The notes under the pieces are model-generated. The model searched no databases, had not been told where the DNA came from, and was given only the letters and a program-made list of their open reading frames with translations. Positions 2,642 through 64,000 of a DNA stretch of 64,000 nt are shown piece by piece (the stretch's first letter is position 1; every line of letters begins with the position of its first letter). Location: NCBI GenBank assembly GCA_964019415.1, contig OZ025869.1:9022714-9086713 (forward strand), written 5' to 3'. The position numbers were made by a program, and so were the translations under genes. The stretch is from Ianthella basta. Its lineage: Eukaryota > Porifera > Demospongiae > Verongiida > Ianthellidae.

Positions 2642-2677
<36 letters not shown>

Positions 2678-4458: not shown

Positions 4459-9519
<5,061 letters not shown>

Positions 9520-14178: not shown

Positions 14179-14295
14179 ATGGCAGAAGCTGAACCTCACC
14201 AGACTGTGGCAGAAGTGCACCTTAATCCTGAAGCAGTAGCTACAGCTCGCGCAAAGGAAAGCCGTAGAGCGGAGCAAGAAGGGCTAACTACACCT
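14179..14295 (+). CDS. Exon 1: start and charged N-terminus
   Basis: 39 codons from ATG: MAEAEPHQTVAEVHLNPEAV, then an Arg/Lys/Glu-rich stretch to LTTP, ending in phase 0 at a GTGAGT donor. It has no recognised domain and is predicted disordered or helical. It lies 90 bp downstream of a TATA box. Joining to exon 2 across ~7.8 kb is inferred from matching phase and the similar charged, Gln/Pro-rich composition. It could alternatively belong to a separate short transcript. Confidence 0.55.
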
Positions 14296-20200: not shown

Positions 20201-23068
20201 ACCACCTGGCGGAAAAACCACAGGAACAAGGAGGAGGGCCGGTCCATGCAAAGAGGGGGACCAGCCTGTCCCCGCAAAACCCATGCAGATCATTAACACT
20301 CACTGACTTGAATACATTTGCACCATCCCTACATCTGGCAACATTTTGACGCGCCTCCTACTACTGCACAACCATTCCGGCTATTCAGCTTCCCTTTTGC
20401 ACCTACAAGTACAGCCTTACCATTTACCTATCTCTCTGTTTTGCTGTGCTCTATCTTCCCTTTCCAGAAGGTTCATCCCTGCAAATTAAACTGCAATCTA
20501 CTTTGCTGTGCTAAGCTCAAATGCAGTGTCAATACTTACCATAGCTGCTCATTACATCGCTGCCTGCAAACCACCACACCCACTTTCATGCCCACACTGT
20601 GTAGCTCTAGGCCAGCACAAACATTGCACACTTCACTGCCAATGTTTGTGAAGTTCAACCTTCATACATCTATATCCAGGTAGCTAGTGTCTTACAGTAT
20701 ATCAGAACACATCTGTACATATGCATGCATCACGGTGTACCAGACTCTGCAATTGCTATACATATAGCTGTACAGCCGTTACTCATCAGCGCTTTAGTCA
20801 TGTACATGGGTGTATGCCTTCAGCTTGGTGATGTGTACATGGGAAGATGCATAGCTGGAATAGGCATGCAATCTTAATCGCATGCATATAGCAGCCCTTT
20901 AGCTTGTCATTGCACACTCACAATTGCATAACAACATGCAGGTGGAGAAATAAGGGATTGTAGCAAGACCACAAGCGCAGCAAAATGTTGCCAGATGTAG
21001 GGATGGTGCAAATGTATTCAAGTCAGTGAGTGTTAATGATCTGCATGGGTTTTGCGGGGACAGGCTGGTCCCCCTCTTTGCATGGACCGGCCCTCCTCCT
21101 TGTTCCTGTGGTTTTTCCGCCAGGTGGTTTGCCCTGCCCTTCAGAGACACACTGCACCATCCCTACATCAGCCCTTGTTTTTGAAGGAAACATTTTTACG
21201 CACCTAGTTGAGTATACGTATGCTCAGTCAAGAACTCTTGGCTCAGTGCAATCACAGCTTTGGGCGGAGCTACCAGTTATGACATCATCATAAGATCATT
21301 ATCACCCGGTGATTGACACCTTTACCACAACATCCCTTTCTGTATGAACAGACACCACAAAACAGAATCCAGAAGCAGTGTTAGCTGCATGCTGTTCTGT
21401 AAAGGGCACCTAGCTCACCTCTATTGCATGGTGTGATAACCAAACACTTTAACTATTTAGCTCAACTGCTTACTGGGAGCTTGTGAGTTAATGGACATTT
21501 GCAATGCCTATTAGCAAAGTGCAGTCCATAAAATGGCTGTGCAGACACCACCAGATGTACTATCTCTGCTGTGGAATCCTGCGCTGTGTTTCAGTGTTCT
21601 CCCCATAAAATAGTTTAGGAAGGCTGCACTAGACCATGACCCATGACCCATGTGAGGAGTGACTAATAGTTGGTTGGGCATGGGAGAGCTGCCCATGTCA
21701 TTCAGTGTAGTAGATGAATACAGGAAGAGCTTCTTGACAGTGTGTAATGCATGCAAATGCTACCTCACTAGACTACGCAGTACTGCCTTTCAAAGAGGGT
21801 ACAGTGCTGTGTTTATAGCCTCAAGGAGTGCTTTGAGGGAACAAGAAGGGTTCTGTACCCTTCAAAAACAGCCTAGGGAGAACACTGCAATATTGGACTC
21901 TTAAATAAATTGTCAGCTTCCCTTTTCCTGCTCATGACTTATTGGAGACTGCTGTGTGTGGGGTTCTTGGTGAATTACAACTATATATGTACTTGCATGC
22001 TGTCTAATGTTTCTGTTGATCAGTTGACAAAATTTTATCCTATCATTATGTACGTATAGGAATGGGCAGGTGGAACAGTTCCCAAAAAGGCTCCTGATAA
22101 GCACCAAGACAGTGCTGCTTCTGTGCCACAGCCATCTGCTGAGGGCACCAAAAAAACACAGAAAAAGAAGAGAAATAGAGAGGATAACGGTAAACAGCGA
22201 AAAGAGCCGCAAGATGTTCAAGAGCAGGTATGTATGTGTAATGCATGCAAATGCTACCTCACTGTGGCTCTTCCATCTTTGTAGGATGACTAGTAATGGG
22301 GGAGGGCGATCACTGGTTGCCATCAATAGGGCTCCGGCCCCCCAGCCTCCTGAAACACTTCGGTGTAGAAGGCTGGTAGGCGTAATATCCAGTGATTAGC
22401 CTTTGTTCAACCTAGCCCGGCCTGGCCGTTGCAGTGGCTTACTGCAATGAACTGACCTCTCAACAATCCCGCGCAAGTCACGCTCATGACTTAGCCTTCC
22501 CCCATTAATATTCACTCTTGTTGAAACCACAAGTGTTTCACTGGTGGCGGATACAAGAGTGACTAGTCATCTTGCATTCCATCAGTACGCCACACTGATG
22601 AGCCCCAATCAGGGCGAAACAGCTGTCTGTGGCTCTTCCATCTTTGTAGGATGACTAGTAATGGGGGAGGGCGATCACTGGTTGCCATCAATAGGGCTCC
22701 GGCCCCCCAGCCTCCTGAAACACTTCGGTGTAGAAGGCTGGTAGGCGTAATATCCAGTGATTAGCCTTTGTTCAACCTAGCCCGGCCTGGCCGTTGCAGT
22801 GGCTTACTGCAATGAACTGACCTCTCATGTATGTGTATGTTTGTGATGCAAAGTTCAAACTCAGCTAAAGGTATTGTCTTCCAGTGCTTATACCTATAGT
22901 ACTGAAGTGAATGAATGGCTTTGAAAGTGTACTGCAGCATTAGAATGATCTATAGCCAAAACCAGATCATCTGGATGATTTACTGTGAACCTGAGGCATG
23001 TTTGTGTGCTGCGCAGTTGTGTATTATGTGTATGTATTTGCATATTGTTCTTTAGTTCAAATATTACA

Positions 23069-23109
<41 letters not shown>

Positions 23110-26100: not shown

Positions 26101-27295
26101 TCAATACTGGCATGGGGATCACTGCGTTAACATGATATAGTCTCATACTTGAGCACAAACAGAACAATTGTGACAGCAGCTTTATATACCACACTGCAGT
26201 ACATGAAGGTGTAAAACAACCCCCCTCCCCCCCCCACACACACACGCTCTGCAAATGCCTAATAGTTTTTTTTATTATTTTCACTGCCAATAATGAGAAC
26301 TAGCCTAAACTGAGTCTATCGCCTACCATATCACCACTTGTGTTGCAGCCTTTGTGATGGTTCGTAGGAACTACCACACATTTTGTACTGTCGATCATCA
26401 GCACTGAATTTACACTGTTAGAAATGTGGTGTGATGTTCACACTGATAACTGGTGTGACTCATTTGCATCTGTGAGCACATCAACTATCAGTGTGATGTT
26501 GACTCCAACAGGATTTGGTGTGATGATCACACCTGTACCTTCACACCAGAATTTGGAGTGATTTCATTTCCACCATATGGCTAGTGGTTGCCATTCATGC
26601 CGCTATTTTCAAATAGTACATAGTCAGTTGGAATAAATCAATTGTAGCGCAGAATGGTGACAATACAAAAGTGACACAGTTAACTAGCTTGTTAGGTAGC
26701 GGTGGTCTTAATGTTATACATAGAAAACATAGAAAAAGTCTGTTCCAAACAGTCCGGTTCGACTTGCAGGGAATCTTGTGAATCTTCACTTCATTGAGTG
26801 TATGCCGAAAGCTGCCTTTAACTCCTTAACTTGTAGCACATTAGGATGGTGTGGTTGCTTGTATGCCAGCAAGGTGAGGCAAAAGGGTTTGACTGAAAGT
26901 ACCTGTACAAATGAAAATTGAAGACCACTCAATAGAGGAAGGAAAATGAAAATGTGTAGTGTTGCTGAACACTGTGAAAGACGTATAATAGTTGCATTTG
27001 CATATAGAAAGTAAAAAACTGACCTTCAGTCATTCAATTCATATGTAGATGTTGCCATCGACGTTGATTGTTGATTTATAATATAGCAGATCACAGCATT
27101 GTCACCCATGGCAGAACTGTAGCTGCAAGAATGTATACATACCACATTTAACTGTGTAATGTTACACACATGTACACTGTATCTTGAACAAAATGGATGT
27201 ATGCTAAATAAGGAACAATCCAGCTACCGCCTGCACAAAGACTAAGTGTGACAGAAGATTAAGTCTACACACACATGCACGCACGCACGCACACA

Positions 27296-27363
<68 letters not shown>

Positions 27364-29237: not shown

Positions 29238-29318
<81 letters not shown>

Positions 29319-53300: not shown

Positions 53301-56300
53301 AAAACAGCATATACAGAGCAGGGGCTCCTCAGCCAAAAGAAAGGCTTACTTGTCACTGTTAACTAAACACTAAACACTAATGGTGATAGTTATCTACAAA
53401 ACAGATGGGTATAATAAAAAGTGAACACAGCATGGTGGATATGGTACAAAGCTATTAATATACTAGAGGATTACCATAGTAGCCATGTGATAGAATTAAC
53501 TATACATGATATGTTGTCTATGTGAATAGAAACTAATGAGGTGGTTTACAATGTGGTTATCATAGTTACACAGAATAAACTTAATTTGTCCTATAAGGGC
53601 ATTTGATAGAATGTGTCTAAGATACATGAACAGTGGTTGTAAAGCTGCAATCTAAGATCATTCAAAACTGAGCAGATGGCTATAAAGTGTGACTGATCCA
53701 CCACCTCCCCCTGCCGCGCAACTGACACACCCTCTCCCTGTACAGGATGTAGGGATATCACCTGGTTTCCGCTGCCAGGTTGAGACAGCCCATGTGCCAG
53801 CCAGCCATCCCCCCCCCTGCCCCCAACTGTTCTAATATTAAGCGCATACCTCTCTGTCTGTGGGGTATCTTTCATTGTTCTACAGAGATTCAATCTTCCT
53901 CCAGACTCTGATTTAGTTCTAAGTTCATTAATTTCACCTCTTTTATAAACAGAGAAAACAAAGCCTGTTTGTAGCTTACTAAGCTTTTTATGCAATCAAG
54001 AGTTGGTGTGAAATGATTGTTGTCGTCATGCATATTCTGTAGTAATTTCTTTGTTGAATAAGCCTAATTTCTGTAACTCCTATCTGCTAGATGACATGAT
54101 TCTTTAAAACTAATATGATTTAATCAATTCGGTGATGTTTTGCTTAGCCTCAGGAAGAATCTGATGCAGGTGGTTTGTGCTAACATATATATGGCACTGG
54201 AAGTGTAATATGAATACATACAACAAAATTGCAATATATAAGCTGTATAGGGGTAACCGCTAAATAGATCATGTGTATAGAACTTGAGACTCCTCAGTGG
54301 TTTGCACAAACTTCCTTTGAAATACCTGTTATTGTTTTGGCTAGCTACAAATTAGCTAGAAATTGCTGTGAAGTGTTTACCCTACTGATTAACTTTTACG
54401 TTCTCCACTGTATTTAGCCGGAATTGCTGTTGAAGATCTTTGATGCATGTCTCTTTGGTGAAAAGCTGGTCATCACTGATATACTGGAAGCTGATGTAAA
54501 TGGCAACTTGCCAAGTAAGAAATCAGCTGCTGCCCAGGAAGCTACTGATGGGCCACAAGGAAGAGATGATAAGAAGGTTAAACAGCCGCAGACCTCCCTT
54601 CTTCCCTACCTGAGTGATCGCCCCAAATTGGTAAGTTTTTGTGATGAATAGCTTGTTGGGTTTGCAATTTCACTCACTGTAACAGTTGCAATGTTGAATT
54701 ATGATGCTCTGCATATTTGTGAATTGCAGTTTCATATGTAGTAGAGACACTGTGCATCACTACATACATTCATCTGTTTAACTCAATACCATATGGCGGG
54801 AAATGTTGGTGGTCCAAATATTTGGTGATTTCACCTTGAAAAAGGCAAAATAAATCTTGGCGCATTTTACAGTTGCCGCTGATAGGTGGTCTGAGGCTAT
54901 GACATCATAATAGACACACTTCCTTGAAGTCTCTGCCGTGACAGACATATGTTCCTGTGTCTGCTGAATCAAGTTAGCAATCATGACACTATCGTATAGG
55001 TAGTCAGACGTAGGTAGGCTTCACCTGACTAGTATTCAAGTGGGATGCAGTTTCTAGATACCTTTATTGGGGTACATTTCCTCTTGCACGTACAATCCTG
55101 CATAATACGCTAGCCCACATACTTTTCGCATAGTCATGCTGGAGCCTGACGAATTGGGTAGTGATCTGCTAGGATAGAACAACTGCAAATCAGTATCGCT
55201 AGTAATAACAACTTGAAGGCAATGATTGTCAAGAAGTGAAGCGTTCTGTGGAATTCGAAGCTACCAACGACAGAAAAAGCACGAAAGAGCCAACTGCCCG
55301 ATTGAATGATCGAAGTACAGCGTTTACACTTTAGAGCAGTGAGCGTGCACAGATTGGCAAGTATATGCTGCAAACTGAATGGTCCACAACTACTGAGCTC
55401 AAAATTTGACAGTTTAAAGTTTGTTGATTCGCACTAGACCACTAAATCACCAAACTTACTTCCTTGCCACTTTTTTGGCTATACGGTACATTGAAGTACA
55501 TCTGAGTAGTGACATGTAACTGGTATGCATAATGTGGCCTAAGCCATGTAGCTTGACGTCTACAAGATAACTGCAGTGACATGAACTTCGTTAAATTATT
55601 GTCAATTGTCAATTGTCTGTATTCAACAGTTCTTCAGGCTTGCCAAACACCCCACCTTGAAGACATTTGTGAGGGAACAATGGAAGGAGCGGGCCCGCTA
55701 TGTATTCTGGTATGTTTGTTAGTCAGACACTATGCATGTTTTCACTGCACTACTTTATACATAGGAGTCTGAATCAGTGTAACATCAAAGTGGATAGAAT
55801 GATTATACACCCTGAGTCAGCAAATACATGTATATGTTGTACGTAAGCTATTTCTGGGCATTGTCCACGAAATCGTGGCTTTAATTTTTCTGAGCTATGT
55901 ATAAAAATGTCCTTACTTTGTATTGGTTCGGCTTCATCTTAGTATGGATTCTTGTTTGTGACCCTGAACATAAGTTACTAAGTATTTAAGAAGTGTGTAA
56001 TAGACTTCTCCATAATAATAGTTAAAATAGTGTTGATACCATGCTATATAGCAAGTGGCTTTCCACAACCAAACTGGATCCATATGGCAATCTTGAGATA
56101 AGCAAAGAATTATGGAAGCTTCACTTTATGGATGTGTGACCTAGAAAGTGAAACCAGGCACTGACCAATCATTGACATTGTCGGAAGTGCAAATTAAGAT
56201 GGTCTATGTACCATGGTGACATGAATGAAAGACAACATGCAGAAATACACATGGTAAGGAAAGGGGGACCAGTGACCTGGCTGCGAAAGAGTCGGCTAAG

Positions 56301-59300
56301 GATCTGGAGTTTGCCAGTGCTGGTGCAGTTAACTGCCATTTTTCCCCTCCTCCCTCTTTCCTTACCATACTTATAAGAAAAGAATTGTGAATAGTTGTGA
56401 CAGGGCAGTAATCTTCTACCATACAGGTCCAGGCTTGTCTACTTCCTATTCAAGATGATTATTCTCACCATTGCCCTTGCCATTGCTGCTCGTCCAGAGC
56501 TGGCGGATGACCAGCTGAACAGATATCCCTACCCCTTGGACTATTTCAGAGGTATCTGTGAAGGGCTTTTGCTTCTCATGATACTGGCAAAGATTGTTGA
56601 AGAATTTGCTGAAGTGATAGTGTAAGTTGCAGTGTAATAGATAAATTCATAAATGTATTAAGAATTAGTCAGGTGTCGTGTGACCCCTCCTCATGGAAGG
56701 GTCAGGTTAAGTCTAATACATTGACTTGTCCACGCAGAATGCAATTATGCGCTGTGGAATGTAATTATTGCACAAAATTATGCCTCGTTTGTAGCCGCAA
56801 GTATGTGCGACGGCTCGCGACACCTGATCTTCCATAATAGCCATCAAAGGAGCGACAGTGAAGACTATCGATGTCCCTTTGACCAGCAACACCAGGACAA
56901 ACACTGTCGGCGGGCACGCATAGCACAGGCTCTTGCCGAAGCCGGTTGGCAAAACAGTGAAACATCTCTCACAGAAATGATGCCAGACACGACCTGAAGT
57001 TGCTCTTACTTCATGGTAGAATAACCAAGGTGCTGGATGGCTTCTGTCGCAGCGTATAACACTCTCTGGTCCATGCTCAGGTCTGCAATAAATATTTCAC
57101 ACCTTTCCTGCAATCTGATTGGGCACACAACCATTGTGGTGTGCTGCACAAGTCAATGTATTAGACTTAACCTGACTTAACCTTCCGCGAGGAGGGGTAA
57201 CGCGACGCCTGACTAATTAAGAATGTAATTGGAGTTGTTTTAAAATGTCGATTTTTTGTAATCAAGATGTATCCACTGGATTGTATGGGAGGAGGACAAT
57301 GCATAGAAGGTCTCACTATATTCATGTGTGACTGAGTGAATTGCAAGGCACTAGCATACCCCTAGCCAATGTTGCACATTGTAACAGGCTAGGCTGCCAT
57401 CTTGTGATGATATGTAACCCAAGGTGGTTCAGTGAAAGAGTGCTGAATGGGAGCATAAGATGTTTAGTTAGTTAAGTGTATAGAACATGTGGCATTGTTG
57501 AAAGAGAATTTTTTCCACAAGTCTTCCACTGAACTATGCATCCTGCACTCAATCTACCAGTGCATTGGTGGAGCAAGTACGCGACAGTGTACAAGGATTC
57601 GATTGGTTATGTTCACTACATATGCCAAATCTCAACTTAATGACCATATGTAACTGCCATAACGTGCATGTGTGTGAGACCAAAACCCTCTGTATGCATA
57701 CATTGTTTATGTCATTATTACGTATTGGGGCTCGCTCAGGCTCGCCCCACACTGATCAGTTGTACAGCGATTTGTACGACAATTTGTCTGTATGTATTAT
57801 ATATATATAGACCTCTTGAAGGGGCTATATGAGGTGATATATCACCAATACAGCCCCTTCAAGAGGTCTAAATATATAGTATATATACCGTTACCAAGGA
57901 AACCATGTCCAATTAGGAGTTATAGGCCTGAGAAAACATGTTGTTACTGACACTGGGTCAAAGTCGCTTCCTCTTAATAGCCTCTTCAGTTCAAGAAGGT
58001 TTTCCACCTCGGCGTATTTCTGTTTAGCCTCCAACTCGACTACTAGACAGTCTCACCAGAATATCGCATTTGAAAACCCGCCAAAATGGACTGTGCATGT
58101 GCAGACTTGACGTAGTAGTCAAAAATGGCAGGTGACTGCCAGCCATTCCTAAATCTCTTTTAATTCAAAAGGAATTTTTATACATTAGTATATATAAAGA
58201 GGAGTCGGGCGTGACCTTTGTCCCGATTTTTCTTGACCACCCTCCAACAGATTGCCACCAAACTTGCCCAGCACTGCGATGCCATGGTGTAGGCTGCACA
58301 ATATGGCTTTCGTTCTCTAATGCCCCACGACCGAGGAGGGGGAAGCGAACGAGTCAACGTGTAATATATAAAGAGTGGGCAGAACCTTTGTCCCCTTATT
58401 CTCAGCCGCCCTCGAATGAATTACCACTAAACTTGCACAGCACTGTGACACTGTGCCGTAGGTTGCACCGAAGTGTTGGCCTACCTTAATAACCTACAGC
58501 TGAGGAAGGGAAGGCGAACGAGTTTTTAGAAAATTTATCAACCAACCCCTCCTGCATCTGGTAGCAGTTTGCTACCAAACTTTCTCAGAAGCACCATGCT
58601 GCCAGGGGAGAGGTGTTCAGAAATGAGCTACTCTTGCAGCATACAAGAGGGAAGTTTTGGGCATGCTTGCAAACCAAACTCCACCGCCAGTAGCGGGTGG
58701 ATTGCTATCAAACTTTCCCAATCATCTCACCCGTTGCTGCTACGAATCAAATTGACCACCATTTTCAAAAGCAGGCCTATTCTGAGCAGTGCAACAACGG
58801 TTCTTCATTAACCGCTCCCGGTGGCCATATTTAATCAGAGAAGATAGCCATGCTCCCATGGAGAAGTTGGAAAGAACTTTGTCCCCACTTTTTCTCATGC
58901 GGCTGTGAACGAATTGCCACTAAATGTTCCCAGCACTACGGCGCCGTGCTGTAGGGTGCACTGAATCATCGGCATTCTCCAACAGCCAACAGCCAAGGAA
59001 GGAACAACGAAAGAGTTTATTAGGCCATATTTCATCCGCCAACCTCCCGCGCACGGCAACGGTTCACCATCAAACTTTCAGAGGCCCAGGGACACTGCAT
59101 TATGGCATAGAGCGTCGCAAAGGATGGGGAACAAGGCTAAATTTAGGGCTTGCCAAAGGCGGGCATCGCAGCTAGTAGTATATATATGATGTATATCAGT
59201 GTGGCAGTGTAGTTGACGCACTCATGTACACATTACACATTTACTTTGTGCTACCTTCCACTGTACAGGAGTGGCTGGTCCTATTGGATAGACTGGACTA

Positions 59301-62300
59301 ACTATGTTGAGTTGCTCAGCATTCTATTCACCCTTTCCATCATTCCCTTTCGAGTGTGGAATCACCCAGGACAGTGGATTGTGGCCTCCTTAGCCTACTT
59401 CTTCAGTGGATTTAAGATAATTGAATTCATTGCTCTCTTTAGGTAAGTTTTGTACATAATCTTAATCCATTGGAGAAGATTGCTTTCTACACACAACACA
59501 TAAGTACAGTCCATGCTTATGATAATGGAGTTTGAACTTTGCACCTACACAGTTGTTCTTTTTAGAGGCATAACAAAATGGTTAAAGCAAAAATCTCTTT
59601 TGCCATTACTGACATTTCAGTCTCCTTCAACTCTGTCATTTCCTAATTGATTATTTCATTTTTTATTATTTGGTTATTTGCCTATTTGATATTTCATTTG
59701 ATTCCTGTATAGATGGACTGGTGCATATGTGCACACTCTGTACATCATTGTTACAAGAGACATTGTGAGGTTCATGGCCGTGTTCCTCATCTTGCTGGTC
59801 ATATTCTCCGGAGGTTTTTACTTCTCCCTGAGGTATGATGACTCATTTGTCACACGTCCTGATAACAGTACTATGATGGGAGGTGGAGTAAACTCTGACT
59901 TACAGACATTGGATGGAGTGGCAAGGCTGCTCCATGAAGTGTACTTCACAGGATTAAGAGCGCTAATTGAGGCTGGCAGTGTGCTCGACTATTATGGAAC
60001 CGATGGCAGCCTGAGGTATGTGTTGCAGTAATAGAAAGGTTTAGCATAGCGTGAAACAATATTTTCATACAGTATATCTCCATTATGTATTTTGCAGAGC
60101 TGAAATCCTCTGTTCACAAACTCCTTCCACAGCTTGCATGTGATCAATGCAAAGTATTACAAGGCGCCGCATAGTGATGGTCATAGGGATGAAGGGTGAT
60201 TTGCTTCACCCATGAAGAGCGCCGCACAATTTCCCTCGATTACGGAAAAAGACACCATGTTTTTTGTACGTTTATGGACAGCACATACGGGATTCCGGTT
60301 ACTTAGCGTTTCAAAAAGGGTGCTATGCATAAAAGGGAGAGCACTCAGAGCTACAACTAACACTATCTGTGGCTCTATACTGATGTGAATCAGCTACTGT
60401 TATGACAACGGAAAGCAGCAACATGGTATACCTCTTCCCTCTGTGAGCATGTTGCTGGTTTTTGCTCCAAGTCAATGATAGCTTAGCTACGTAGCTAGCT
60501 AGCTATCTGTCAGCAATATTTGTATGCATTTGTTCTTACTTTGCCAAGCACTACTCCTTTCTAAATTTCTGTCCCGCACTGCAGTTTAATCACCTTCTTT
60601 TCACCTTTGTATATACTAGCTGTTCTTTGCTACCTTTCTAGCTACCAATTATGCAGTTGTTTCAGTGTCGTACCTATTGTCGGTGAATGCATGATTCTGC
60701 TTAGCTATTCCAGGCAATTCTCACTATTTGTTCACATCATGCTACACACAGCATAGCCTGCAACATTCATGGTTGCGATAGTGATGTAAATCAGCCACCG
60801 TTATGACACCAGAACGCTGCAGCTAGTAAACCCAGGCTTTTCTTTCTGAGAGCTTTTAACAACAAGTCAGTAGCTATCGTCAATAAAATTTGCATGCCGT
60901 TGTTCAAACTTTGCCCATCACAGCTCCTTTCCGAATTGCTGCGGACCCCTTACTACCACCTTCTGTCCACCGTTGTATATACTGCTCTTCACTTCCTTTT
61001 TACCAATTATGCAGTTGTTTCAATGCTGTCATATCTATTGTCAGTGCATGAATGCTTTCACTTATTCTGCACGATTCTCTGTCCACGTCATGCTACACAC
61101 AGCATCACCTACAACATGCATGGTTGTGGCCTACAGCTGGCATATATATCCACACCATTATATTCCAAACTGGCAATGCCTGGCCGTCGTGGAGTAGCTG
61201 AGAGTGACAGTGATTCCAATCCTTTTGCTGATATATTGATGAACAGTAGCTTGATCACTTGAACAATTACCTTGCGACTGGATGTGTTCCTGCATTATTT
61301 AAACAAGCATTAATATTTCAGTGACTCAACTTGGGCTGATTCACATTATTTTAACAGCACATATATTTCCCAATTACGGTAACCCCTATTTTACATGTTG
61401 TAAAAGCCATACACCTCCAGCACTGGCGATCATAATTTTGAACTAATTTTTTTAATTAAGCGTGTTATTTCTTTCTCCTCATCTCTCTTATTCAGGGCAC
61501 TGAGTGTTGTAATCTACCTGCTATTTCTGTTCATTGTTGTCATCATCCTTCTGAATGTACTGATCGCCCAGGTGTCCGACACTTACACCAAGGTCCTCTC
61601 AACTGCTGAGGGAATCTATCTGTATCATCAGTGTCGATACATAGCCCGGCTGGAGGCACAGCAGTTTTATCCTGGTGTGCTGTGCTACCTTTTCCCAAGG
61701 TGCTTCGAAAAGTGCTGTGGTGTTTACTTCCCAAAATGCTTCCTTAAATGCTGTGGTGTCCGCCTCCCAAGTTTCTTTCAAATATGCGGTCTTATCTGCT
61801 GCTTTGTCCCATGGTTTTTCTGCAAATGCTGTGGTAACTGTTTTCAGAGCTGCAAGTGTGCCAATATTGTAAGTTGAATTGCATGCAACTGTGCTGTTAC
61901 ATTGACTGTATTGCACTCATGGTTACTTACTACAACTGTGCCTAATTTCTGCATATAGCACAGTGTTCACAAGGTTATAGTGTACGGTTTACAGTGACAG
62001 TGTACCTGATTCCAAGTGCCCCTTCTTATATTGATCTAGTGCAAGTCAGTATTACGGCAAACGTTAGGTCTTTATACAACTTTACCAAATGCCCTTGAAG
62101 TTAAACTAGCAGAGACCATGCAGCCTTTGTAGGAACTGTTAACACAGTGGGTGTTGTATTGTGTATGTAACTATCAAGTACCTTCTGTCCCTCTGTTAAC
62201 AGTTCTCAAAGGAACGTCAGTGGCCTAATTTAATTTGGATTGGGAAGAAGCGCAATCAAGGAAACTCGCGTTGGGTGACATTCAAGAAAAAGGTTGTCTG

Positions 62301-63625
62301 GTTCTTCACAGTGTGAGTGGAGACACAGTTATAAATGAATTGCTTAATGGTTGCCTGTGGGATCTAGTTGGACTTCGGTATATATGCAGCTGAAGCCATG
62401 CCACCATAGGATATGTTTATGCTAGGGGCCACAGGGCAAACACATAGCTAAAGTCTGTAGCCGCAGCATCTTTTGGGGATGTACTTGGGTGGAATGCTCA
62501 AGTCCAGTACTATTGCAGGGCAATCCTGAGTGTCTACTCTGGGTTTGATTTAACATTAGGGGGCATAGCTACTCATACCCACCAAACACGCACAGTCTTA
62601 TGCAGATAGGTTCTTCGTATTTCTCCTTGTCATTCTGATCCAGCCCATACTAGTAGAGATAACATGCAAGTATGAGGTCAATATCAATTACAGTGGAAGT
62701 TTGCATGCATTGAATTGTTCTCAAACATGCAAGAGTTGCCAGTAAAAATCGAAAATTATTGCATTCTGGCAATTTGGAGATTCTCCAAGATTTAGGTAGC
62801 CACACGTCTTCATAGAACGTGTAGCAAGTTTGAGGTGAACCTGAGCTTCCATTGCCAGGAAATCATCAGTTGAATGTAGCCAACTCACCAGTTTGTTTAT
62901 TGTATGCAGGATAAAAATGGTAATTAAAATGGCCGCTGCCATTTAACTTTTGACGAATTCAGTCTCATTTTGTATCATATTGATGTTTAATTGAGCAATA
63001 AACTGTGGCAATCACCTACTGTAGTGAGAATCAAGCCATCAGCAGAGTGATGCTCATGTTACACTGGCCAAATGTTCCAGTCAGTGTTTTGCAAGAGGTT
63101 ATCTAAGTATGAAACCAAGGGCTTGCAGTTGAAAGATACCCTTGCTGGTGTAATCAGGATGATTTCATTCAGTTCAGCCACTCAGCGACCAGCCACTTTG
63201 TACATAGCTAAGCTGTAGCCATCTACACCAGTAAGACGACGAGTTCAACGGCAGGAGACGATTCTCTTACACTAAGCCCTTAAGCACATTGTTCTAAAAA
63301 TAGTAGCGTCTCTACCATGGAAAAATATCCAAAATGCAATTATTTGCGTGGGAGCTTCCCGCTCCTACCCCTTCCCTGTTTTTCTCAATATGCACTCCTG
63401 GTTCATGCCAATTTTTGGGAGGCAATTTTTGATTATAACAATTTGCGGTAATTTTCGATTTCTGCTGGCGACTCTCACGCATAGTAGATGTTTCACATGT
63501 ATTTGGTATAAAGTCAACTTTAATGCAGTGGCCAGTGACACAAGTACCGCTTCCTTGTACTGTTGCAGGTATGCCTTTGATGAAGATGATGACTCAGCTG
63601 CAGAGGAGGGCACTCAAAAACTGGA
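14179..63625 (+). CDS. SPRY x5 - ankyrin - TRP-like channel gene (24 exons, 3' end off window)
   Basis: I assembled one gene from exons 14179-14295, 22060-22227, 23268-23373, 24344-24388, 31541-32092, 33303-33851, 34133-34177, 34706-34750, 35022-35066, 37502-38062, 39358-39909, 44156-44710, 44857-45089, 45569-45730, 48515-49026, 50049-50187, 54418-54630, 55630-55709, 56427-56621, 59269-59442, 59713-60015, 61496-61868, 62203-62312 and 63569-63625. Every junction is GT-AG and phase-compatible, giving 5891 nt (1963 codons plus 2 nt). Order: charged N-terminus (1-146), SPRY 1-2 (146-513), microexon linker (513-558), SPRY 3-5 (558-1114), linker (1114-1245), ankyrin repeats (1246-1416), linker (1416-1560), six membrane helices (1560-1815), Cys-rich tail (1815-1908), acidic end. 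It is predicted to be a membrane cation channel with cytoplasmic protein-binding domains. Exon 24 ends in phase 2, so more exons follow. Exons 1-4 are the least certain; splitting into two genes is possible but the phases argue against it. Confidence 0.72.
14296..15060. other. Start of intron 1, no gene seen
   Basis: This is the first part of the 7.8-kb intron 1, after the GTGAGT donor. It has short ORFs only and no recognised protein. It contains a modest G run at 14996-15004. Confidence 0.45.
15071..16299. repeat. Repeat family flanking the retrotransposon ORF
   Basis: The left flank (3' side) of the antisense retrotransposon ORF. It begins with CAGACAGCACGGTAGTGCTG and TGTAGGGATGG (15101-15111). 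It contains three diverged copies of a ~95-bp unit at about 15540-15640, 15775-15870 and 16020-16120, with shared pieces such as GATGACTGTTC and CATTCG. A diverged relative of the same DNA occurs at ~46760-47290, without an ORF. The unit may be a regulatory repeat or degraded terminal region of the element. Confidence 0.55.
16300..19404 (-). mobile_element. Non-LTR retrotransposon ORF: CXC finger, RT, restriction-like endonuclease
   Basis: A single uninterrupted 1034-codon ORF, antisense within intron 1 of the channel gene. It starts at the ATG at 19404-19402; a slightly longer frame would begin with GTG. Residues 3-34 are a dense Cys cluster (CCRCNSSGQCRNCVCV...CTNC) like tesmin/TSO1 CXC fingers. 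RT motifs follow: A, VDASNAFNCLN near 444; B, TQGDPLAM near 500; C, FADDAS near 530. Near 821-836 comes a C-x-C-x7-H-x4-C finger, then RHNLIRDITANL, ARADI (~890) and FFDVRI (~908), resembling the PD-(D/E)xK-type endonuclease of R2-like retrotransposons, but with Ala for Pro. Such proteins copy element RNA at a nicked chromosomal site. The lack of stops or frameshifts suggests recent insertion. Naming the clade would need a tree. Confidence 0.85.
19443..19454 (-). promoter_or_regulatory. YY1-like motif 5' of the retrotransposon ORF
   Basis: On the minus strand, AAAAATGGCGGC lies ~40 bp upstream of the retrotransposon ATG. YY1 sites near the 5' end direct transcription start in vertebrate L1, so this is a plausible internal promoter element. 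Inferred from sequence only. Confidence 0.35.
19476..19731. repeat. 34-bp perfect direct repeat at the element 5' side
   Basis: GCTATAGCCAATATCCATCC (continuing to GAGTCAG) occurs at 19476-19509 and again at 19698-19731, 222 bp apart. The intervening DNA carries GTGCGGTTGCTTCCGGCC-like sequence that also occurs at ~15680 on the other side of the ORF. It may mark an internal promoter repeat or an element edge. Confidence 0.75.
19821..19850. repeat. Poly-G tract
   Basis: About 30 bases of nearly pure G with one A, right of the retrotransposon. Surrounding bases 19732-20120 show no gene. Confidence 0.9.
20125..21204. mobile_element. Large inverted duplication carrying a 176-bp TIR element
   Basis: Arms 20125-~20352 and ~20978-21204 are inverted near-identical copies separated by ~625 bp. 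Inside each arm is a 176-bp unit (20160-20335 and 20994-21169) bounded by the terminal inverted repeat GATGTAGGGATGGTGCA. The core TGTAGGGATGG also marks ends at 15101 and 41238 and, inverted, at 42780. No protein is encoded; ORFs here are chance. It is a non-autonomous DNA element, either inserted as an inverted pair or as a foldback. Confidence 0.75.
21205..22059. other. End of intron 1, no gene seen
   Basis: No recognised coding content. A 29-bp stretch at 21741-21769 (TGTGTAATGCATGCAAATGC...) recurs exactly at 22235-22263, directly before the ribozyme repeat. The segment ends in the TATAG acceptor of exon 2. Confidence 0.4.
22060..22227 (+). CDS. Exon 2: Lys/Gln-rich segment
   Basis: 56 codons, phase 0 at both ends, between ACGTATAG and a GTATGT donor. 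The reading EWAGGTVPKKAPDKHQDSAA leads into a Lys-rich stretch (GTKKTQKKKRNRE) that could act as a nuclear-import-like or acidic-partner-binding patch. A second frame is also open, but only this one joins exon 1 and exon 3 in phase. No domain is recognised. Confidence 0.6.
22262..22827 (+). mobile_element. Retrozyme-like element with hammerhead ribozyme
   Basis: Two apparently identical 201-bp direct repeats (22262-22462 and 22627-22827) are separated by 164 bp that ends in a hammerhead ribozyme. The repeat period is 365 bp, and each repeat begins at the ribozyme cleavage site. This is the arrangement expected if tandem ribozyme units are self-cleaved to unit length, circularised and re-inserted, as described for retrozymes. 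It encodes no protein. TGTATGTGTA occurs at 22231-22240 and 22828-22837 as a possible target-site duplication. It lies 34 bases inside intron 2 of the channel gene, in sense orientation. Confidence 0.8.
22561..22659 (+). ncRNA. Type I hammerhead ribozyme
   Basis: All hammerhead core elements are present in order. Stem I 5' strand GCCACA (22589-22594); conserved CUGAUGA (22595-22601); stem II GCCC/GGGC closing a CAAUCA loop (22602-22615); conserved GAAA (22616-22619); short self-complementary stem III ACAGCUGU (22619-22626); cleavage nucleotide C22627 after GU; then UGUGGC (22628-22633), which pairs exactly with GCCACA. Farther out, GACTAGTCATC (22561-22571) pairs with GATGACTAGT (22650-22659), extending stem I beyond an internal loop that could make the usual loop I-loop II contact. 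The loop-less stem III suggests cleavage as a dimer, as in other animal hammerheads. Confidence 0.9.
23071..23134. repeat. (TG)n and (CGTG)n microsatellite
   Basis: A TG dinucleotide tract passes into CGTG tetramers in intron 2. Neighbouring short ORFs are repeat translations. Confidence 0.9.
23268..23373 (+). CDS. Exon 3: acidic segment
   Basis: Frame PVSYHGDDVVKILDDDSDDS continues to a short Ser/Ala/Lys end, phase 0 to phase 1, acceptor CCTTTAG and donor GTGTGG. An alternative AG seven bases downstream would break the phase, which decides this border. The Asp-rich tract suggests a disordered linker. No domain is recognised. Confidence 0.6.
23945..23978. repeat. Perfect 15-bp hairpin
   Basis: TTATACCCTTGTGAT, a 4-base loop (GAGG), and the exact reverse complement. 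It lies in intron 3. It could be a tiny element remnant. Confidence 0.7.
24344..24388 (+). CDS. Exon 4: 45-nt microexon (copy 1)
   Basis: A symmetric phase 1-1 exon encoding DDVSVTISEDPSVKQ between a GCAG acceptor and a GTTTGTG donor. Three more exons of exactly 45 nt with the same pattern (Asp/Gly start, Ile near the middle, Glu pairs, Gln end) occur at 34133, 34706 and 35022. Such an exon can be skipped or included without changing frame. It joins exon 3 to the first SPRY exon. Confidence 0.7.
24389..28090. other. First half of intron 4, no gene seen
   Basis: About 3.7 kb with no supported exon. An open stretch at 24826-24929 is flanked by splice-like signals, but its phases do not fit. 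TACACTGTTA-type repeat ends occur at ~26410. CA/GC repeats lie at 27265-27361 and 27570-27850. Many short ORFs in this interval are uninformative. Confidence 0.45.
27265..27361. repeat. (CACG)n/(CA)n microsatellite
   Basis: CACG tetramers run into a ~45-base CA tract. A further short CA tract lies at 27570-27592, with CA-rich DNA to ~27720. Confidence 0.9.
28100..29190 (-). pseudogene. Non-LTR retrotransposon C-terminus, frame-broken
   Basis: Antisense in intron 4 of the channel gene. Consecutive pieces of one retrotransposon protein appear in shifting minus-strand frames. From 5' to 3': WVERMLEPQVTTMLKKW (~29130-29080), RFLAERQHARDKW (~28930), the finger LCTICCK...H...HC (~28590-28520), and the endonuclease-like part with TDLRPDITV, ELTV and RKESKY (~28380-28250), ending in QVGCRGF. 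The RPD...E...K arrangement is that of the restriction-like endonuclease of R2-type elements. The element differs from the intact ORF at 16300. Frameshifts (for example near 28470) and the loss of the RT core mark it as dead. Confidence 0.75.
29197..29317. repeat. (CA)n microsatellite
   Basis: About 120 bases of CA repeats with AAC interruptions, abutting the upstream end of the retrotransposon pseudogene. It may have grown from, or interrupted, that element. Confidence 0.95.
29318..31058. other. Second half of intron 4, no gene seen
   Basis: No exon is recognised. At ~29950-30038 there are repeated GTGTGAT/ATCACAC motifs ending in TTTTAACAGTGTAG. This is the inverse of the TACACTGTTA end near 26410, and may be the other terminus of an old element. 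Confidence 0.4.
31059..31236. mobile_element. 82-bp foldback element with hammerhead-like core
   Basis: Arms 31059-31140 and 31155-31236 are reverse complements with only two mismatches by my count, around a 14-base loop. The inner part of each arm reads GACGAAGGCC...GGGC(C/T)GAAACGTCC, which resembles the hammerhead pattern CUGANGA-stem II-GAAA. The first core base is altered and stem I is not formed, so activity is doubtful. It lies in intron 4, 300 bp upstream of SPRY exon 1. Confidence 0.8.
31541..32092 (+). CDS. Exon 5: SPRY domain 1
   Basis: 184 residues, phase 1-1, between GATTTAG and GTAAGC. It starts GDKMNFISKFG. SPRY signatures are WNYFEV, GIGIGHERY, MPGWDAGSIGYHSDDGGLFH, GDRMGCGVDF, VRVWFTKND and YPLICM, ending KAEYMGH. 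SPRY domains are beta-sandwich protein-interaction modules. The pattern is nearest to the SPRYD3/RanBPM type by eye. It is the most divergent of the five copies (for example ERY where others have KDY or KNY). Confidence 0.88.
33303..33851 (+). CDS. Exon 6: SPRY domain 2
   Basis: Phase 1-1. It starts GPRKKFLPESYIADQ, unlike the (M)NFIS/NLMS start of the others. Signatures: CNYFEVKI, GVGHKDYPL, MPGWDDNSIGYHADDGGLYH, GDRMGCGVDF, VRVWFTKNDQMV and YPLICM. A Cys replaces the Trp before NYFEV. It resembles SPRY 4 more than SPRY 3 or 5. Confidence 0.88.
34133..34177 (+). CDS. Exon 7: 45-nt microexon (copy 2)
   Basis: GHFSIGIGEEHSELQ, phase 1-1, between TTCTAG and GTTTGTG. It has diverged from the DDV-type microexons, but length, phase, the donor and the following CAGCCCACCCTA match the copy at 34706, so it is a duplicate. 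Whether it is still used in transcripts is unknown. Confidence 0.55.
34706..34750 (+). CDS. Exon 8: 45-nt microexon (copy 3)
   Basis: DDVAIAIHDEQPVAQ, phase 1-1, acceptor TTGCAG, donor GTTTGT. It is nearly identical to the next microexon and similar to the first at 24344. It forms part of an acidic linker between SPRY 2 and SPRY 3. Confidence 0.72.
35022..35066 (+). CDS. Exon 9: 45-nt microexon (copy 4)
   Basis: DDVALSIHEEQPIAQ, phase 1-1, acceptor TTGCAG, donor GTATGT. It joins in frame to SPRY exon 3. Flanking intron sequence is also similar to the previous microexon, so the duplication is local. Confidence 0.72.
35625..35770. repeat. Degenerate foldback element
   Basis: An imperfect inverted repeat: GGATTTAGAACA...GGAAACCAAT...TAGAGG on the left mirrors CCTCTATATTGGTTTCC...TGTTCTAAATC on the right. 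It is an old MITE-like insertion in intron 9. Confidence 0.6.
36202..37290. repeat. ~1-kb dispersed repeat, forward copy
   Basis: Segments match, in reverse orientation, 52242-52340 (matching 36202-36296) and 60140-61200 (matching ~36350-37290), all in introns of the same gene. It contains a ~100-bp tandem unit (GTTCACAGAAGGAAGA and GCTTCACAGAAGGAAGA, ~36857 and ~36954) and the hairpin at 36304-36338. No ORF is recognised; it is probably a non-autonomous element. Confidence 0.65.
36304..36338. repeat. GC-rich 16-bp hairpin
   Basis: AGCAGGAAAGCCCGCC, a 3-base loop TTT, and the reverse complement with one mismatch. A twin with AGCAGGAAAGCCTGCC is at 53248-53282. Compensatory C/T and G/A changes keep the stem paired. 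Confidence 0.85.
37502..38062 (+). CDS. Exon 10: SPRY domain 3
   Basis: Phase 1-1, 187 residues. It starts GDGMNFISMFG. Signatures: WNYFEVKI, IGLGHKNYSLSNMPGW, SIGYHADNGGFYHECG, GDRMGCGIDF, VRVWFTKNDKVVF and YPLICMRGSGQKVQYMGHQ. It is closest to SPRY 5 (both have the GIAGV segment and GQ(K/E)VQYMGHQ). The frame stays open past the GTATGC donor for ~50 codons, but the donor position agrees with the other four SPRY exons. Confidence 0.9.
38225..38508. repeat. MITE-like hairpin element, copy 1
   Basis: Arms around CACATGGTAAGGAAAGAGG and CCTCTTTCCTTACCATGTG fold back over a centre with GGCTAAAGATCTGGAG. A related element with the same ends (ATGGTACATAGGCCATCTTA, seen inverted) lies at 56195-56369. 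Confidence 0.75.
39358..39909 (+). CDS. Exon 11: SPRY domain 4
   Basis: Phase 1-1. It starts GDRMNFISTFD. Signatures: WNYFEVEI, IGVGHKDYLLSRMPGWDD, SIGYHADDGGLFHEDGF, GDRMGCGVDF, VHVWFTKNGQMV and YPLIGMWEGQKVRYLGH. It lacks two residues found in the others between VDFT and the GHV strand. It is closest to SPRY 2. Confidence 0.9.
40849..41004. repeat. ~155-bp foldback element
   Basis: Left arm ACTTAAAGTTGGTTAGGAGT continues through GTGATACAGGTTG; the right arm is its reverse complement with a few mismatches, ending CAACTTTAAGT. The centre is CTTGGCTTTGCCTC. It is MITE-like, in intron 11. Confidence 0.8.
41237..42791. mobile_element. Nested TIR elements with hammerhead-like motif
   Basis: The outer ends are TGTAGGGATGG (41237-41247) and CCATCCCTACA (42780-42790). 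Inside, a ~1.05-kb element has ~61-bp terminal inverted repeats (41257-41318 and 42245-42305; core CTAGCACACTAATGAATCAC). It is flanked by GATGGTAGTGGTT and GATGGCAGTGGTT, a likely target-site duplication. Next to the right repeat is CUGAUGA-AGCCC...GGC-GAAACGUC (42204-42232), a hammerhead-like core with weak stem I. No protein is recognised inside. Confidence 0.65.
43008..44110. other. End of intron 11, no gene seen
   Basis: No supported gene. Short ORFs lack signatures. Confidence 0.4.
44156..44710 (+). CDS. Exon 12: SPRY domain 5
   Basis: Phase 1-1, 185 residues, between TTTTAG and GTAAGC. It starts GHVNLMSKFG. Signatures: WNYFEVKI, IGLGHKDYPLSNMPGW, SIGYHADDGGLYHERG, GDRMGCGVDF, VRVWFTKNSKVVF and YPLICMRGSGQEVQYMGHQ. 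It is followed after only 146 bp by exon 13, which joins it in phase. Confidence 0.92.
44857..45089 (+). CDS. Exon 13: linker, Trp/Arg-rich
   Basis: Phase 1 to 0. VPISWWRAAGFESEDTVPFY leads to TPNVRGRFPHIRRFQRSFC and ECKQRAEFFVEEYAK. No family is recognised. Its position between SPRY and ankyrin repeats, and its helical look, suggest a cytosolic scaffold segment. Confidence 0.8.
45569..45730 (+). CDS. Exon 14: helical linker before the ankyrin repeats
   Basis: 54 codons, phase 0-0, acceptor GGTAG, donor GTAAGT. EARDFKELKAPNGRTLEPCD and YARMLISVVGKEDALEFFRY, ending IGGLQNNIV. It may contain a divergent first ankyrin-like repeat, but no signature is clear. Confidence 0.8.
45836..46631. mobile_element. 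TIR element rich in GGCCTCTATT/GGCCACTATT motifs
   Basis: The ends ACCATATTTGTCCAAATAGA and its near reverse complement (TATACGGACAAATACGGT) bound a ~796-bp unit in intron 14. Near both ends GGCC(T/A)CTATT is reiterated. A second element is nested inside at 46172-46370, with inverted ends TAAGGTAAAGTAGGGGGTTT and ...CCCCTACCTTA. No protein is encoded. Confidence 0.75.
46760..47320. repeat. Diverged relative of the retrotransposon flank
   Basis: ATCAGACAGCAC...CTGTAATGCAAACAAA and later CATATGACTG...GTTCTAAGGTGTAGATGAGG correspond to 15071-15150 and 15540-15625. It indicates a second, decayed copy of the repeat that flanks the intact RT ORF, without coding sequence. Confidence 0.5.
48515..49026 (+). 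CDS. Exon 15: ankyrin repeats
   Basis: Phase 0 to 2, 170 codons. At least three consecutive ankyrin-type repeats: DPNMKDGDEKTALHL...VKMLLEFEAEVNVQD, then NSGDTPLHIAARNGRTAVVE with VLLKNGAST, then NNKNQTALDTAAVHGNLECF. The first ~45 residues look like a degenerate repeat (LNWGTDPN ends it). Ankyrin repeats N-terminal to a six-helix channel are typical of TRP-family channels. The frame ends four bases before an in-frame TAA, and the CA|GTAAGT donor decides the border. Confidence 0.92.
50049..50187 (+). CDS. Exon 16: polar helical linker
   Basis: Phase 2 to 0. IYRAAVRTTDQDSEIVQYQ leads to SVQRLVAQAAKSDADLT. It is Gln/Asp-rich with no recognised domain, probably the segment between the ankyrin region and the membrane-proximal part. 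Confidence 0.8.
50465..50690. repeat. CACTCCACTCACATCAC minisatellite
   Basis: A degenerate tandem array of CACTCCACTCACA/ACATCACA-type units running into CA repeats, in intron 16. ORFs here are repeat translations. Confidence 0.85.
50691..54417. other. Intron 16 interior
   Basis: No coding content is recognised. It contains the reverse-oriented repeat 52242-52340 (kin of 36202-36296) and the hairpin at 53248. The rest appears unique or too decayed to name. Confidence 0.4.
53248..53282. repeat. Perfect 16-bp GC-rich hairpin
   Basis: AGCAGGAAAGCCTGCC, loop AAA, exact reverse complement. It is the twin of the hairpin at 36304-36338. Upstream flanks are also related (CTTCGTCGGTGCGCCAT versus the inverse of GCACCCGTATGACGG). 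Confidence 0.9.
54418..54630 (+). CDS. Exon 17: membrane-proximal segment
   Basis: 71 codons, phase 0-0. PELLLKIFDACLFGEKLVIT opens a helical segment, then a Lys/Gln/Gly-rich disordered stretch, ending SLLPYLSDRPKL. No domain is recognised. It lies just before the membrane module. Confidence 0.85.
55630..55709 (+). CDS. Exon 18: pre-TM1 helix
   Basis: Phase 0 to 2. FFRLAKHPTLKTFVREQWKE continues to RARYVFW. It is an amphipathic basic helix directly before the first membrane segment, as in TRP-type pre-S1 regions. Confidence 0.85.
56195..56369. repeat. MITE-like hairpin element, copy 2
   Basis: Starts TAAGATGGTCTATGTACCAT. ACACATGGTAAGGAAAG faces CTTTCCTTACCAT. It is the same family as 38225-38508 and sits ~60 bp upstream of exon 19. 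Confidence 0.7.
56427..56621 (+). CDS. Exon 19: membrane helices 1 and 2
   Basis: Phase 2-2. TM1 LVYFLFKMIILTIALAIAA, then a short loop (RPELADDQLNRYPYPLDYF), then TM2 GICEGLLLLMILAKIVEEF. It corresponds to S1-S2 of an ion-transport domain. Confidence 0.9.
56653..57226. mobile_element. TIR element carrying a RecQ-like helicase fragment
   Basis: ~75-bp terminal inverted repeats (56653-56733 and 57146-57226; GACTTAACCTGA and GTCAATGTATTAGACTTAA on the right mirror the left) bound ~570 bp in intron 19. The minus strand between ~57074 and 56780 reads AATEAIQHLGYSTMK, then LPTGFGKSLCYACPP (Walker A type) and VAPLMAIMEDQVS (DEAH-like region of RecQ helicases, with the acidic box absent or beyond). 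A stop after GYSTMK and a frameshift before LPTG break it. It is a captured, dead helicase piece. Confidence 0.75.
57808..57870. repeat. Perfect 19-bp foldback
   Basis: TAGACCTCTTGAAGGGGCT (57808-57826) and its exact reverse complement (57852-57870). The interior continues to pair imperfectly (TATATGAGGTGATAT / ATATCACCAATACA), and AT-rich arms extend outward. A small MITE in intron 19. Confidence 0.85.
58195..59180. repeat. Degenerate tandem repeat, ~4 units
   Basis: Units near 58214, 58380, 58560 and 58868 share CCTTTGTCCC, GAATTACCACTAAACTTGC (variants), CAGCACTG and GCCGTG..TAGG(T/G)TGCAC. It ends GGCTTGCCAAAGGCGGGCAT, a half-match to the hairpins at 36304 and 53248. Non-coding repeat in intron 19. 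Confidence 0.6.
59269..59442 (+). CDS. Exon 20: membrane helices 3 and 4
   Basis: Phase 2-2. YWIDWTNYVELLSILFTLSI (S3) and WIVASLAYFFSGFKIIEFIA (S4), joined by a short loop PFRVWNHPGQ. S4 lacks the regularly spaced arginines of voltage sensors, as in most TRP channels. Confidence 0.92.
59713..60015 (+). CDS. Exon 21: membrane helix 5 and pore region
   Basis: Phase 2-2. An S4-S5 linker-like stretch (WTGAYVHTLYIIVTRDIVRF) leads to S5 MAVFLILLVIFSGGFYFSL, an extracellular loop with sequon NST (TRPDNSTMMGGG), and a pore-helix-like segment ARLLHEVYFTGLRALIEAGS. No canonical GxGD/GM-type filter is obvious, so ion selectivity cannot be read. Confidence 0.92.
60016..61495. repeat. Intron 21 filled with dispersed/tandem repeat
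   Basis: 60140-61200 is a reverse copy of the ~1-kb repeat at 36350-37290. Within it, ~60375-60780 and ~60781-61130 are a diverged tandem duplication; both contain ACCAATTATGCAGTTGTTTCA and CATGCTACACACAGCAT. No gene is seen. Confidence 0.65.
61496..61868 (+). CDS. Exon 22: membrane helix 6 and cysteine-rich tail
   Basis: Phase 2 to 0. S6 is LSVVIYLLFLFIVVVIILLN followed by VLIAQVSDTYTKV, matching the N-x-LIA...(D/E)TY/V end of S6 in TRP channels. After a helical QCRYIARLEAQQFYPG comes a stretch with ~17 cysteines in imperfect repeats (PRCFEKCCGVYFP, PKCFLKCCGVRLP, FFCKCCGNCFQSC). These could be palmitoylation sites, a metal-binding cluster or a re-entrant hydrophobic hairpin. I know no named domain for it. 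Confidence 0.92.
62203..62312 (+). CDS. Exon 23: cytosolic segment
   Basis: Phase 0 to 2. FSKERQWPNLIWIGKKRNQG continues to WVTFKKKVVWFFTV. Basic and aromatic, predicted inner-leaflet-facing. No domain is recognised. Confidence 0.85.
62313..63568. other. Intron 23, nothing recognised
   Basis: No ORF with family signature and no clear repeat structure is seen. It ends in the TGTTGCAG acceptor of exon 24. Confidence 0.4.
63569..63625 (+). CDS. Exon 24: acidic C-terminal segment, gene continues
   Basis: VYAFDEDDDSAAEEGTQKLE, phase 2-2, donor GTGAGT. Because it ends mid-codon with no stop, at least one further exon lies beyond 64000, or possibly within 63627-64000, where I found none. Confidence 0.75.
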
Positions 63626-64000
63626 GTGAGTTAACTCAGGTTTCAGTTTTGATGAAGTATAAAATTTGTGGGTGTGTGCATTATTTGGTTGCACACTTCA
63701 TACCTATCAAATCCATCAAGGAAAGGGAATACATGGAAATTATATTGAATAATAATAATGAATGTCTCTCTCCTGTCCTTCCTCACAATGTTTTGCATCC
63801 AACTGCATGATTACTTTAGGGGCATTATGATGAGTAATGTTAGGGAGACAGTATCCACAGGTACTGTAGTTAGCAATGTGTCTAAGATCTGGTAGTGTTG
63901 TGTGCTACCCTTGATGGCTGCAAGGCCAACAGCTGTGCAATTGCCATTTTTCTGTGATGCATGAAATCATACACTGGCGGCATTATAGGTGTTTGAAGGA

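Follow-up and report, generated by a model that had tools for sequence, protein, structure and literature searches.

A stretch of 64,000 nucleotides from the sponge Ianthella basta (contig OZ025869.1 of assembly GCA_964019415.1, here called C2; C2:9022714-9086713, hereafter 'the window') carries a gene, designated A, in which five tandem SPRY domains, ankyrin repeats and a six-helix channel follow one another on one strand. The parts, their order and frame, the duplication history of the gene and the selection acting on it could be documented from genomic DNA, and they support a single gene for the SPRY and channel exons, not two. On balance, it is probable that this gene encodes a TRPV-like cation channel subunit of about 220 kDa, whose SPRY array would bind or scaffold cytosolic proteins and act through the ankyrins.

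Linkage of the SPRY and channel exons

The model of A was built manually, from genomic sequence alone, by joining open frames at splice sites. It occupies positions 14179-63629 of the forward strand in 23 exons (Table 1), whose phases agree at 22 of 22 junctions, and predicts a protein of 1981 amino acids with no internal stop. An in-frame stop lies upstream of the start codon in exon 1, and the word TATAAAA occurs 90 bp before the ATG in both A and its paralog B. In a Pfam search of the spliced protein, SPRY (244.7 bits in five stretches, cut-off 26.3), Ank_2 (88.1 bits, cut-off 27.3) and Ion_trans (30.2 bits, cut-off 25.0) all exceeded their cut-offs, in the order SPRY, ankyrin, channel, while a PKD_channel match fell below threshold. 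The initial annotation had proposed the same chain and suggested such a domain search; its coordinates, exon numbering, strand and domain order, and all of its parts, were recovered in our independently built model.

The searched genome comprises 209 Mb in 96 contigs, and three paralogs of A, named B, C and D, lie on C2 on the same strand as A. Spliced alignment resolved B (C2:9099505-9124768) into 23 exons of identical phases, with 1607 of the 1962 aligned residues identical to A, 19 residues of A unaligned, and one in-frame stop, in exon 5. C extends from SPRY 1 at C2:9152862 to its end at 9192077 and has four SPRY domains, with relics of exons 1 to 4 further upstream of SPRY 1; D has a single SPRY at C2:8827632, ends at 8836374, and is 57% identical in the ankyrin exon. 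The order of SPRY, ankyrin and channel on one strand is kept in all three, and one gene is favored because B, C and D share this linkage. It is to be noted that the spliced aligner demands AG acceptors and GT or GC donors, so that the agreement of splice sites in B, C and D is partly by construction.

The junction between the two halves bears on the alternative that two neighboring genes, one for a poly-SPRY cytosolic protein and the other for an ankyrin-TRPV-like channel, were wrongly chained by phase. SPRY 5 and exon 12 are separated by an intron of 146 bp in A and 162 bp in B; SPRY 5 ends in a GTAAGC donor with a phase-matched acceptor at exon 12, and exon 12 has no Met. When each of exons 1-22 was read through its donor, a stop was reached within 2-141 nt. 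Words resembling polyA signals (AATAAA/ATTAAA-like) numbered 0, 0, 3 and 0 in introns 11-14 of A and 0, 1, 1 and 0 in those of B, and none in these introns was common to A and B. The mark of separate genes named beforehand was a stop, or a polyA site, in the interval from exon 12 to exon 15; nothing decisive of the kind was found, and the order recurs in the three paralogs. Two separate genes would be in keeping with a SPRY-less ankyrin-TRPV-like channel on contig C17 of the same genome, with the fast evolution of the linker exons 12-13 (in which no Pfam family exceeded its cut-off), and with a Met in the ankyrin exon (LLYMG) that is conserved in A, B, C and D; set against the short gap with its matched splice sites, the stops past every donor, the lack of a shared polyA-like word, and the same linkage in four genes, including one as diverged as D, this alternative is quite improbable.

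Selection was estimated from the ratio of nonsynonymous to synonymous substitution rates (dN/dS), which is noisy per exon for short exons. Between A and B, the overall dN/dS is 0.34; the SPRY exons give 0.30 and channel exons 17-23 give 0.26. Across the three pairs among A, B and C, it is 0.26-0.34 in SPRY exons 9-11 and 0.15-0.18 in the transmembrane core; the ankyrin exon 14 gave 0.17 for A-B, 0.40 for A-C and 0.46 for B-C. In the A-D pair, the transmembrane core has a value of 0.34 and the ankyrin exon one of 0.27. These low ratios in the SPRY half and in the channel half alike indicate that both have been kept as working protein. Chance chaining of the exons was rejected on the paralogs and dN/dS together.

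Table 1. Exons of gene A in the window, with the evidence for each.
Feature	Position	Strand	Evidence and remarks
Exon 1	14179..14295	+	Start codon (MAEAEPHQ...); phase 0 out; conserved in B
Exon 2, charged/low-complexity N-terminus	22060..22227	+	Splice sites; kept in B and C; A-B dN/dS 0.38
Exon 3, acidic stretch, phase 1 out	23268..23373	+	Kept in B and C; A-B dN/dS 0.44
Exon 4 (uncertain)	24344..24388	+	Fits in phase; similar sequence in B and C; donor (GTTTGT) weak
Exon 5 (uncertain)	24545..24626	+	Weak donor GTTAAC; copy in B has in-frame stop
Exon 6 (uncertain), phase 1 out	24826..24929	+	Good splice sites in A; A-B dN/dS 0.50
Exon 7, SPRY 1, phase 1-1	31541..32092	+	Pfam SPRY; A-B dN/dS 0.42
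Exon 8, SPRY 2, phase 1-1	33303..33851	+	Pfam SPRY; A-B dN/dS 0.35
Exon 9, SPRY 3, phase 1-1	37502..38062	+	Pfam SPRY; A-B dN/dS 0.28
Exon 10, SPRY 4, phase 1-1	39358..39909	+	Pfam SPRY; A-B dN/dS 0.20
Exon 11, SPRY 5, phase 1-1	44156..44710	+	Pfam SPRY; A-B dN/dS 0.30
Exon 12, SPRY-to-ankyrin linker, starts in phase 1	44857..45089	+	Conserved in B, C and partly D
Exon 13, linker	45569..45730	+	Conserved in B and C
Exon 14, ankyrin repeats (about 3-4 by eye)	48515..49026	+	Pfam Ank_2, 97.9 bits
Exon 15, linker, phase 2-0	50049..50187	+	Conserved in B and C; A-B dN/dS 0.84
Exon 16, pre-membrane linker domain, phase 0-0	54418..54630	+	Conserved in B, C and D
Exon 17, before helix S1	55630..55709	+	80 nt long in each of A-D and in the SPRY-less C17 paralog
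Exon 18, helices S1-S2	56427..56621	+	Hydropathy; 195 nt in A-D and the C17 paralog
Exon 19, helices S3-S4	59269..59442	+	Hydropathy; A-B dN/dS 0.09
Exon 20, helix S5, turret with NST site, pore loop	59713..60015	+	A-B dN/dS 0.17
Exon 21, helix S6 (LLNVLIA), post-S6 helix, Cys-rich tail	61496..61868	+	Hydropathy
Exon 22, cytosolic C-terminus	62203..62312	+	Conserved in B, C and D
Exon 23, acidic C-terminus	63569..63629	+	Stop codon 63627-63629; aligned in B, C and D

The channel half and its relatives in the genome

Kyte-Doolittle hydropathy of A fits six helices, with hydrophobic stretches at residues 1574-1603, 1616-1644 (three overlapping peaks), 1654-1672, 1678-1699, 1708-1742 and 1795-1832, and with the pore at 1774; the NST site, like the pore loop, lies between the fifth helix and the sixth. 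This layout of six helices and a pore loop belongs to the plan of the TRP superfamily, and in A it is supported by hydropathy and by the Ion_trans match. The 385-residue channel part, scanned against NCBIfam, matched TIGR00870 (trp) at 4e-16 and 58.3 bits, below the curated cut-off of 498.75. A profile search of PDB returned Inactive (8.4e-13), which we take to be a TRPV, TRPV4 (5.7e-9) and TRPV1 (3.3e-7), and among the best 60 of 135 matches the first 27 were of TRPV type, with the algal TRP1 as the 28th; when the single sequence of A was used, the algal TRP1 stood second. The pore segment is identical across A-D up to the residue after GSVL, with a few changes in the C17 paralog. Ank_2 matched in two stretches, the best covering 72 residues; by eye, about 3-4 repeats are visible. 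Within exon 21, positions 61660-61868 of the window encode a Cys-rich, hydrophobic, repeat-like tail, and the length of this exon varies (373, 337, 361 and 271 nt in A, B, C and D, respectively).

A genome search with the channel part as query gave 131 matches among those listed (125 of 229 candidates scored). The exon encoding helix S6 was covered by 54 of them, counted by hand, so that TRPV-like loci or fragments number at least about 54, near-identical copies among them; this is a large TRPV-like expansion, with clusters on C20, C10, C5, C18, C3 and C21. The genome-wide Pfam search for SPRY placed 5 of its 40 matches on exons 7-11 of the window and 15 in A-D in total (5, 5, 4 and 1). Of the other 25, none lay within 150 kb of a channel match among those listed, as judged by eye, and the closest SPRY-channel pair outside A-D was C12:814 kb versus C12:626 kb. 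SPRY is special to A-D among the TRPV-like genes of this genome, in what was searched. By spliced alignment, the C17 paralog is an ankyrin-channel gene, and its exons 17-20 measure 80, 195, 177 and 306 nt, as do those of D, compared with 80, 195, 174 and 303 nt in A; a tblastn search with SPRY 5 drew a blank in 10 kb around it (about 6 kb before the ankyrin exon, with 200 N). The same query drew a blank at C2:5.302-5.312 Mb, a stretch that ends short of the ankyrin match of its locus and in which the spliced model was poor.

Two pieces related to the cluster lie on C12. One, within C12:626001-635500, is a repeat-bordered 2.2-kb segment that is 99.6% identical to the channel exons of D and is either the product of a recent, partial duplication or a duplicate made by the assembly. 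The other is a stray SPRY exon of the channel clade, resembling SPRY 1 (C12:814775-815332, reverse strand; 57% identical to SPRY 4 of A); it adjoins an open frame that by eye appears to encode a GTPase-like P-loop, and no ankyrin or channel match was present in the surrounding 10 kb. Both pieces, the damaged 5' end of C and the stop in the doubtful exon 5 of B would suit an assembly artefact or a decaying gene cluster, an explanation that is nonetheless extremely unlikely, as A has an uninterrupted frame and is under constraint in comparison with B, C and D, and the paralogs have diverged and are not haplotype copies.

Other observations concern SPRY frames elsewhere and the neighborhood of A. 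A single open frame of 1921 amino acids at C14:107110-112872 contains at least four Pfam SPRY matches that are divergent from the channel SPRYs, and other SPRY exons, on C3, adjoin frames that by eye resemble RING plus TRAF-type zinc-finger proteins. In intron 1 of A, a minus-strand open frame of 1053 amino acids (16300-19461), with RVT_1 at 26.5 bits against a cut-off of 29.6, is probably a retrotransposon. Upstream of A, at 1852-5422 on the minus strand, two frames match alpha-galactosidase A (Melibiase_2, 68.1 and 30.4 bits). Four scans for relatives in collections of viral, bacterial and archaeal contigs yielded 57, 10, 40 and 37 pattern matches, of which none was confirmed, a result that is uninformative on animals.

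Origin and proposed working of the SPRY array

Each of the five SPRY domains, numbered by array position (S1 to S5), corresponds to one exon of 549-561 nt and phase 1-1. In a tree of 20 SPRYs (long-branched outsiders; 7 of 17 inner branches open), grouping followed position in the array and not the gene of origin; the array is therefore older than the duplication that produced A, B and C. S2 grouped with S4 (95/95) and S3 with S5 (99/99), and the single SPRY of D fell beside these two groups (89/88, open). The nearest outsider (86/90) came from C15, where it is the first of two SPRYs encoded by one frame; the best solved match of that frame was SPRYD3 (6.6e-32). The solved structures nearest to the SPRYs of A were likewise SPRYD3 (2yyo, 3.2e-25), RanBP10 (9.1e-20) and RanBP9 (2e-19). 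The array probably arose when an ankyrin-TRPV-like channel gene captured a SPRYD3-like exon, which tandem exon copying, including that of a two-exon block, would then have expanded before the gene itself was duplicated.

From N- to C-terminus, the predicted subunit would consist of a charged tail, the five SPRY domains, a fast-evolving linker, 3-4 ankyrins, a pre-S1 linker, six helices with the pore loop, and a Cys-rich tail. If four subunits assemble as in other TRPs, about twenty SPRY domains would be arranged on the cytosolic side. There, the array most likely recognizes or scaffolds proteins, since SPRYs of the SPRYD3/RanBP9 type bind partner proteins, and such binding could be relayed through the ankyrin layer to channel gating, positioning or turnover.

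Several observations weigh against this picture of an intact, TRPV-like channel gene with a protein-binding array. First of all, two paralogs are imperfect: C has lost SPRY 2, and its exon 1 has, by eye, lost the ATG and contains a stop, and the N-terminus of D could not be modeled, a forced model having a stop there. Exons 4-6, in the charged, low-complexity stretch encoded by exons 2-6, are weak: A has the poor donors GTTTGT and GTTAAC, and B has a GC donor besides the stop in exon 5; exon 3 (phase 1) can splice straight to SPRY 1 (phase 1) and skip them. In exons 1, 12, 13 and 15, where A-B dN/dS is 0.86, 0.75, 1.29 and 0.84, at least one wrong frame scored below the true frame, so selection does not show these exons to be coding, and linker exons 12-13 range from 0.64 to 0.92 in the pairs among A, B and C. 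The pore of A reads HEVYFTGLRALIEAGSVL, in which the GMGD-type filter of TRPVs is absent. Hydropathy also detected an extra hydrophobic stretch at 1886-1917 in the Cys-rich tail, so that the six helices are a reading and not proof. Lastly, the role of the SPRYs in A is assigned by analogy alone.

The regularity of the SPRY exons raises a further alternative, that they are cassettes, one or a few of which enter each mRNA to give isoforms with different recognition domains, much as exon arrays do in other genes. With all five in phase 1-1 and of 549-561 nt, any subset keeps the frame; moreover, the copies have been distinct by position since before the split of A, B and C, each under purifying selection between A and B, and one SPRY may suffice, as the modelable part of D has a single one. 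No sign of splice regulation emerged, no search aimed at it having been made; a repeat array that is always spliced in full would be just as likely to have symmetric exons in tandem, and cassette use is considered rather unlikely. Similarly doubtful is the broader proposal of a new TRP subfamily in which splicing of interchangeable SPRY exons would generate many recognition sets and make the channel a combinatorial intracellular sensor.

The array may, by a further analogy, serve chiefly as a handle for a ubiquitin ligase, bringing in degradation machinery, and so set the number of channels and not their gating. SPRYD3 and RanBP9/10 are the nearest SPRY relatives, and human SPRYD3 is reported, in the text available from PMC12664034, to confer substrate specificity on the MYCBP2 ligase. 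The likeness is limited to the sequence family, however, and such a role needs no five copies, which makes this an improbable account; recognition or scaffolding that acts through the ankyrins is still preferred.

Relation to known channels and SPRY proteins

TRP channels with ankyrins, kinases or hydrolases are known. SPRY on a TRP channel was undescribed in the titles and opening lines of abstracts among the matches listed from a full-text literature search, with subscription papers and InterPro outside its range. The view in the initial annotation that the combination and order are unfamiliar therefore holds as absence from these matches, and no wider novelty is supported. Like the TRPVs Inactive, TRPV1 and TRPV4, A has ankyrins before six helices, a pore loop, an S6 helix with LLNxLIA, and a post-S6 helix; unlike them, it has a SPRY array and a fast-evolving linker before the ankyrins, and a Cys-rich tail. 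TRPVs have six N-terminal ankyrin repeats and a GMGD-type selectivity filter; A has about 3-4 visible repeats and no such filter, and its E-values are modest. As it lacks the filter and shows fewer than six repeats, A is called TRPV-like and not TRPV. TRPA and TRPN have ankyrin arrays of more than 10 repeats, and membership in either was rejected, A having one ankyrin exon with only about 3-4 repeats and no long array.

On the SPRY side, A resembles SPRYD3 and RanBP9/10 in SPRY sequence. These are soluble proteins not known to have ankyrins or a channel, SPRYD3 having two SPRY domains. Membership of A in the SPRYD3 family was rejected, as A has five SPRYs plus ankyrins and a channel and shares the SPRY sequence alone.

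Among sponges, the TRPs of Ephydatia muelleri are described in the available portion of PMC7385117 as greatly diversified and as grouping with TRPA and TRPML. I. basta is similar to it in such a diversification within one genome, and differs in that the Ephydatia TRPs have the TRPA/TRPML grouping, with SPRY unmentioned in that portion. A review (PMC11526382) has suggested, in its accessible text, that tandem duplication may affect large receptor genes, TRP among them, less readily; the tandem TRP cluster formed by A-D contrasts with this suggestion.

Another parallel in design is the ryanodine receptor, which has several SPRY domains in its large cytosolic part (PMC3194816, as far as its available text goes). 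Both pair multiple SPRYs with a cation channel; in A, unlike the ryanodine receptor, the SPRYs are contiguous and SPRYD3-like, the pore is TRPV-like, and ankyrins are present. Kinship with the ryanodine receptor was rejected, since RIH, MIR, RyR and RIH-associated domains were absent from the Pfam scan of the whole A protein, which listed 10 families at E-values up to 10 (its filters drop most above about 0.1). If our reading of A is true, the joining of a TRPV-like pore to a SPRYD3-like array would represent a meeting of SPRY and cation channel separate from that in the ryanodine receptor, with stages of its assembly (a single-SPRY paralog, SPRYs in pairs and relatives without SPRY) still visible in one genome, and would offer a direct test case for the grafting of a recognition domain onto a channel and its coupling to the gate.
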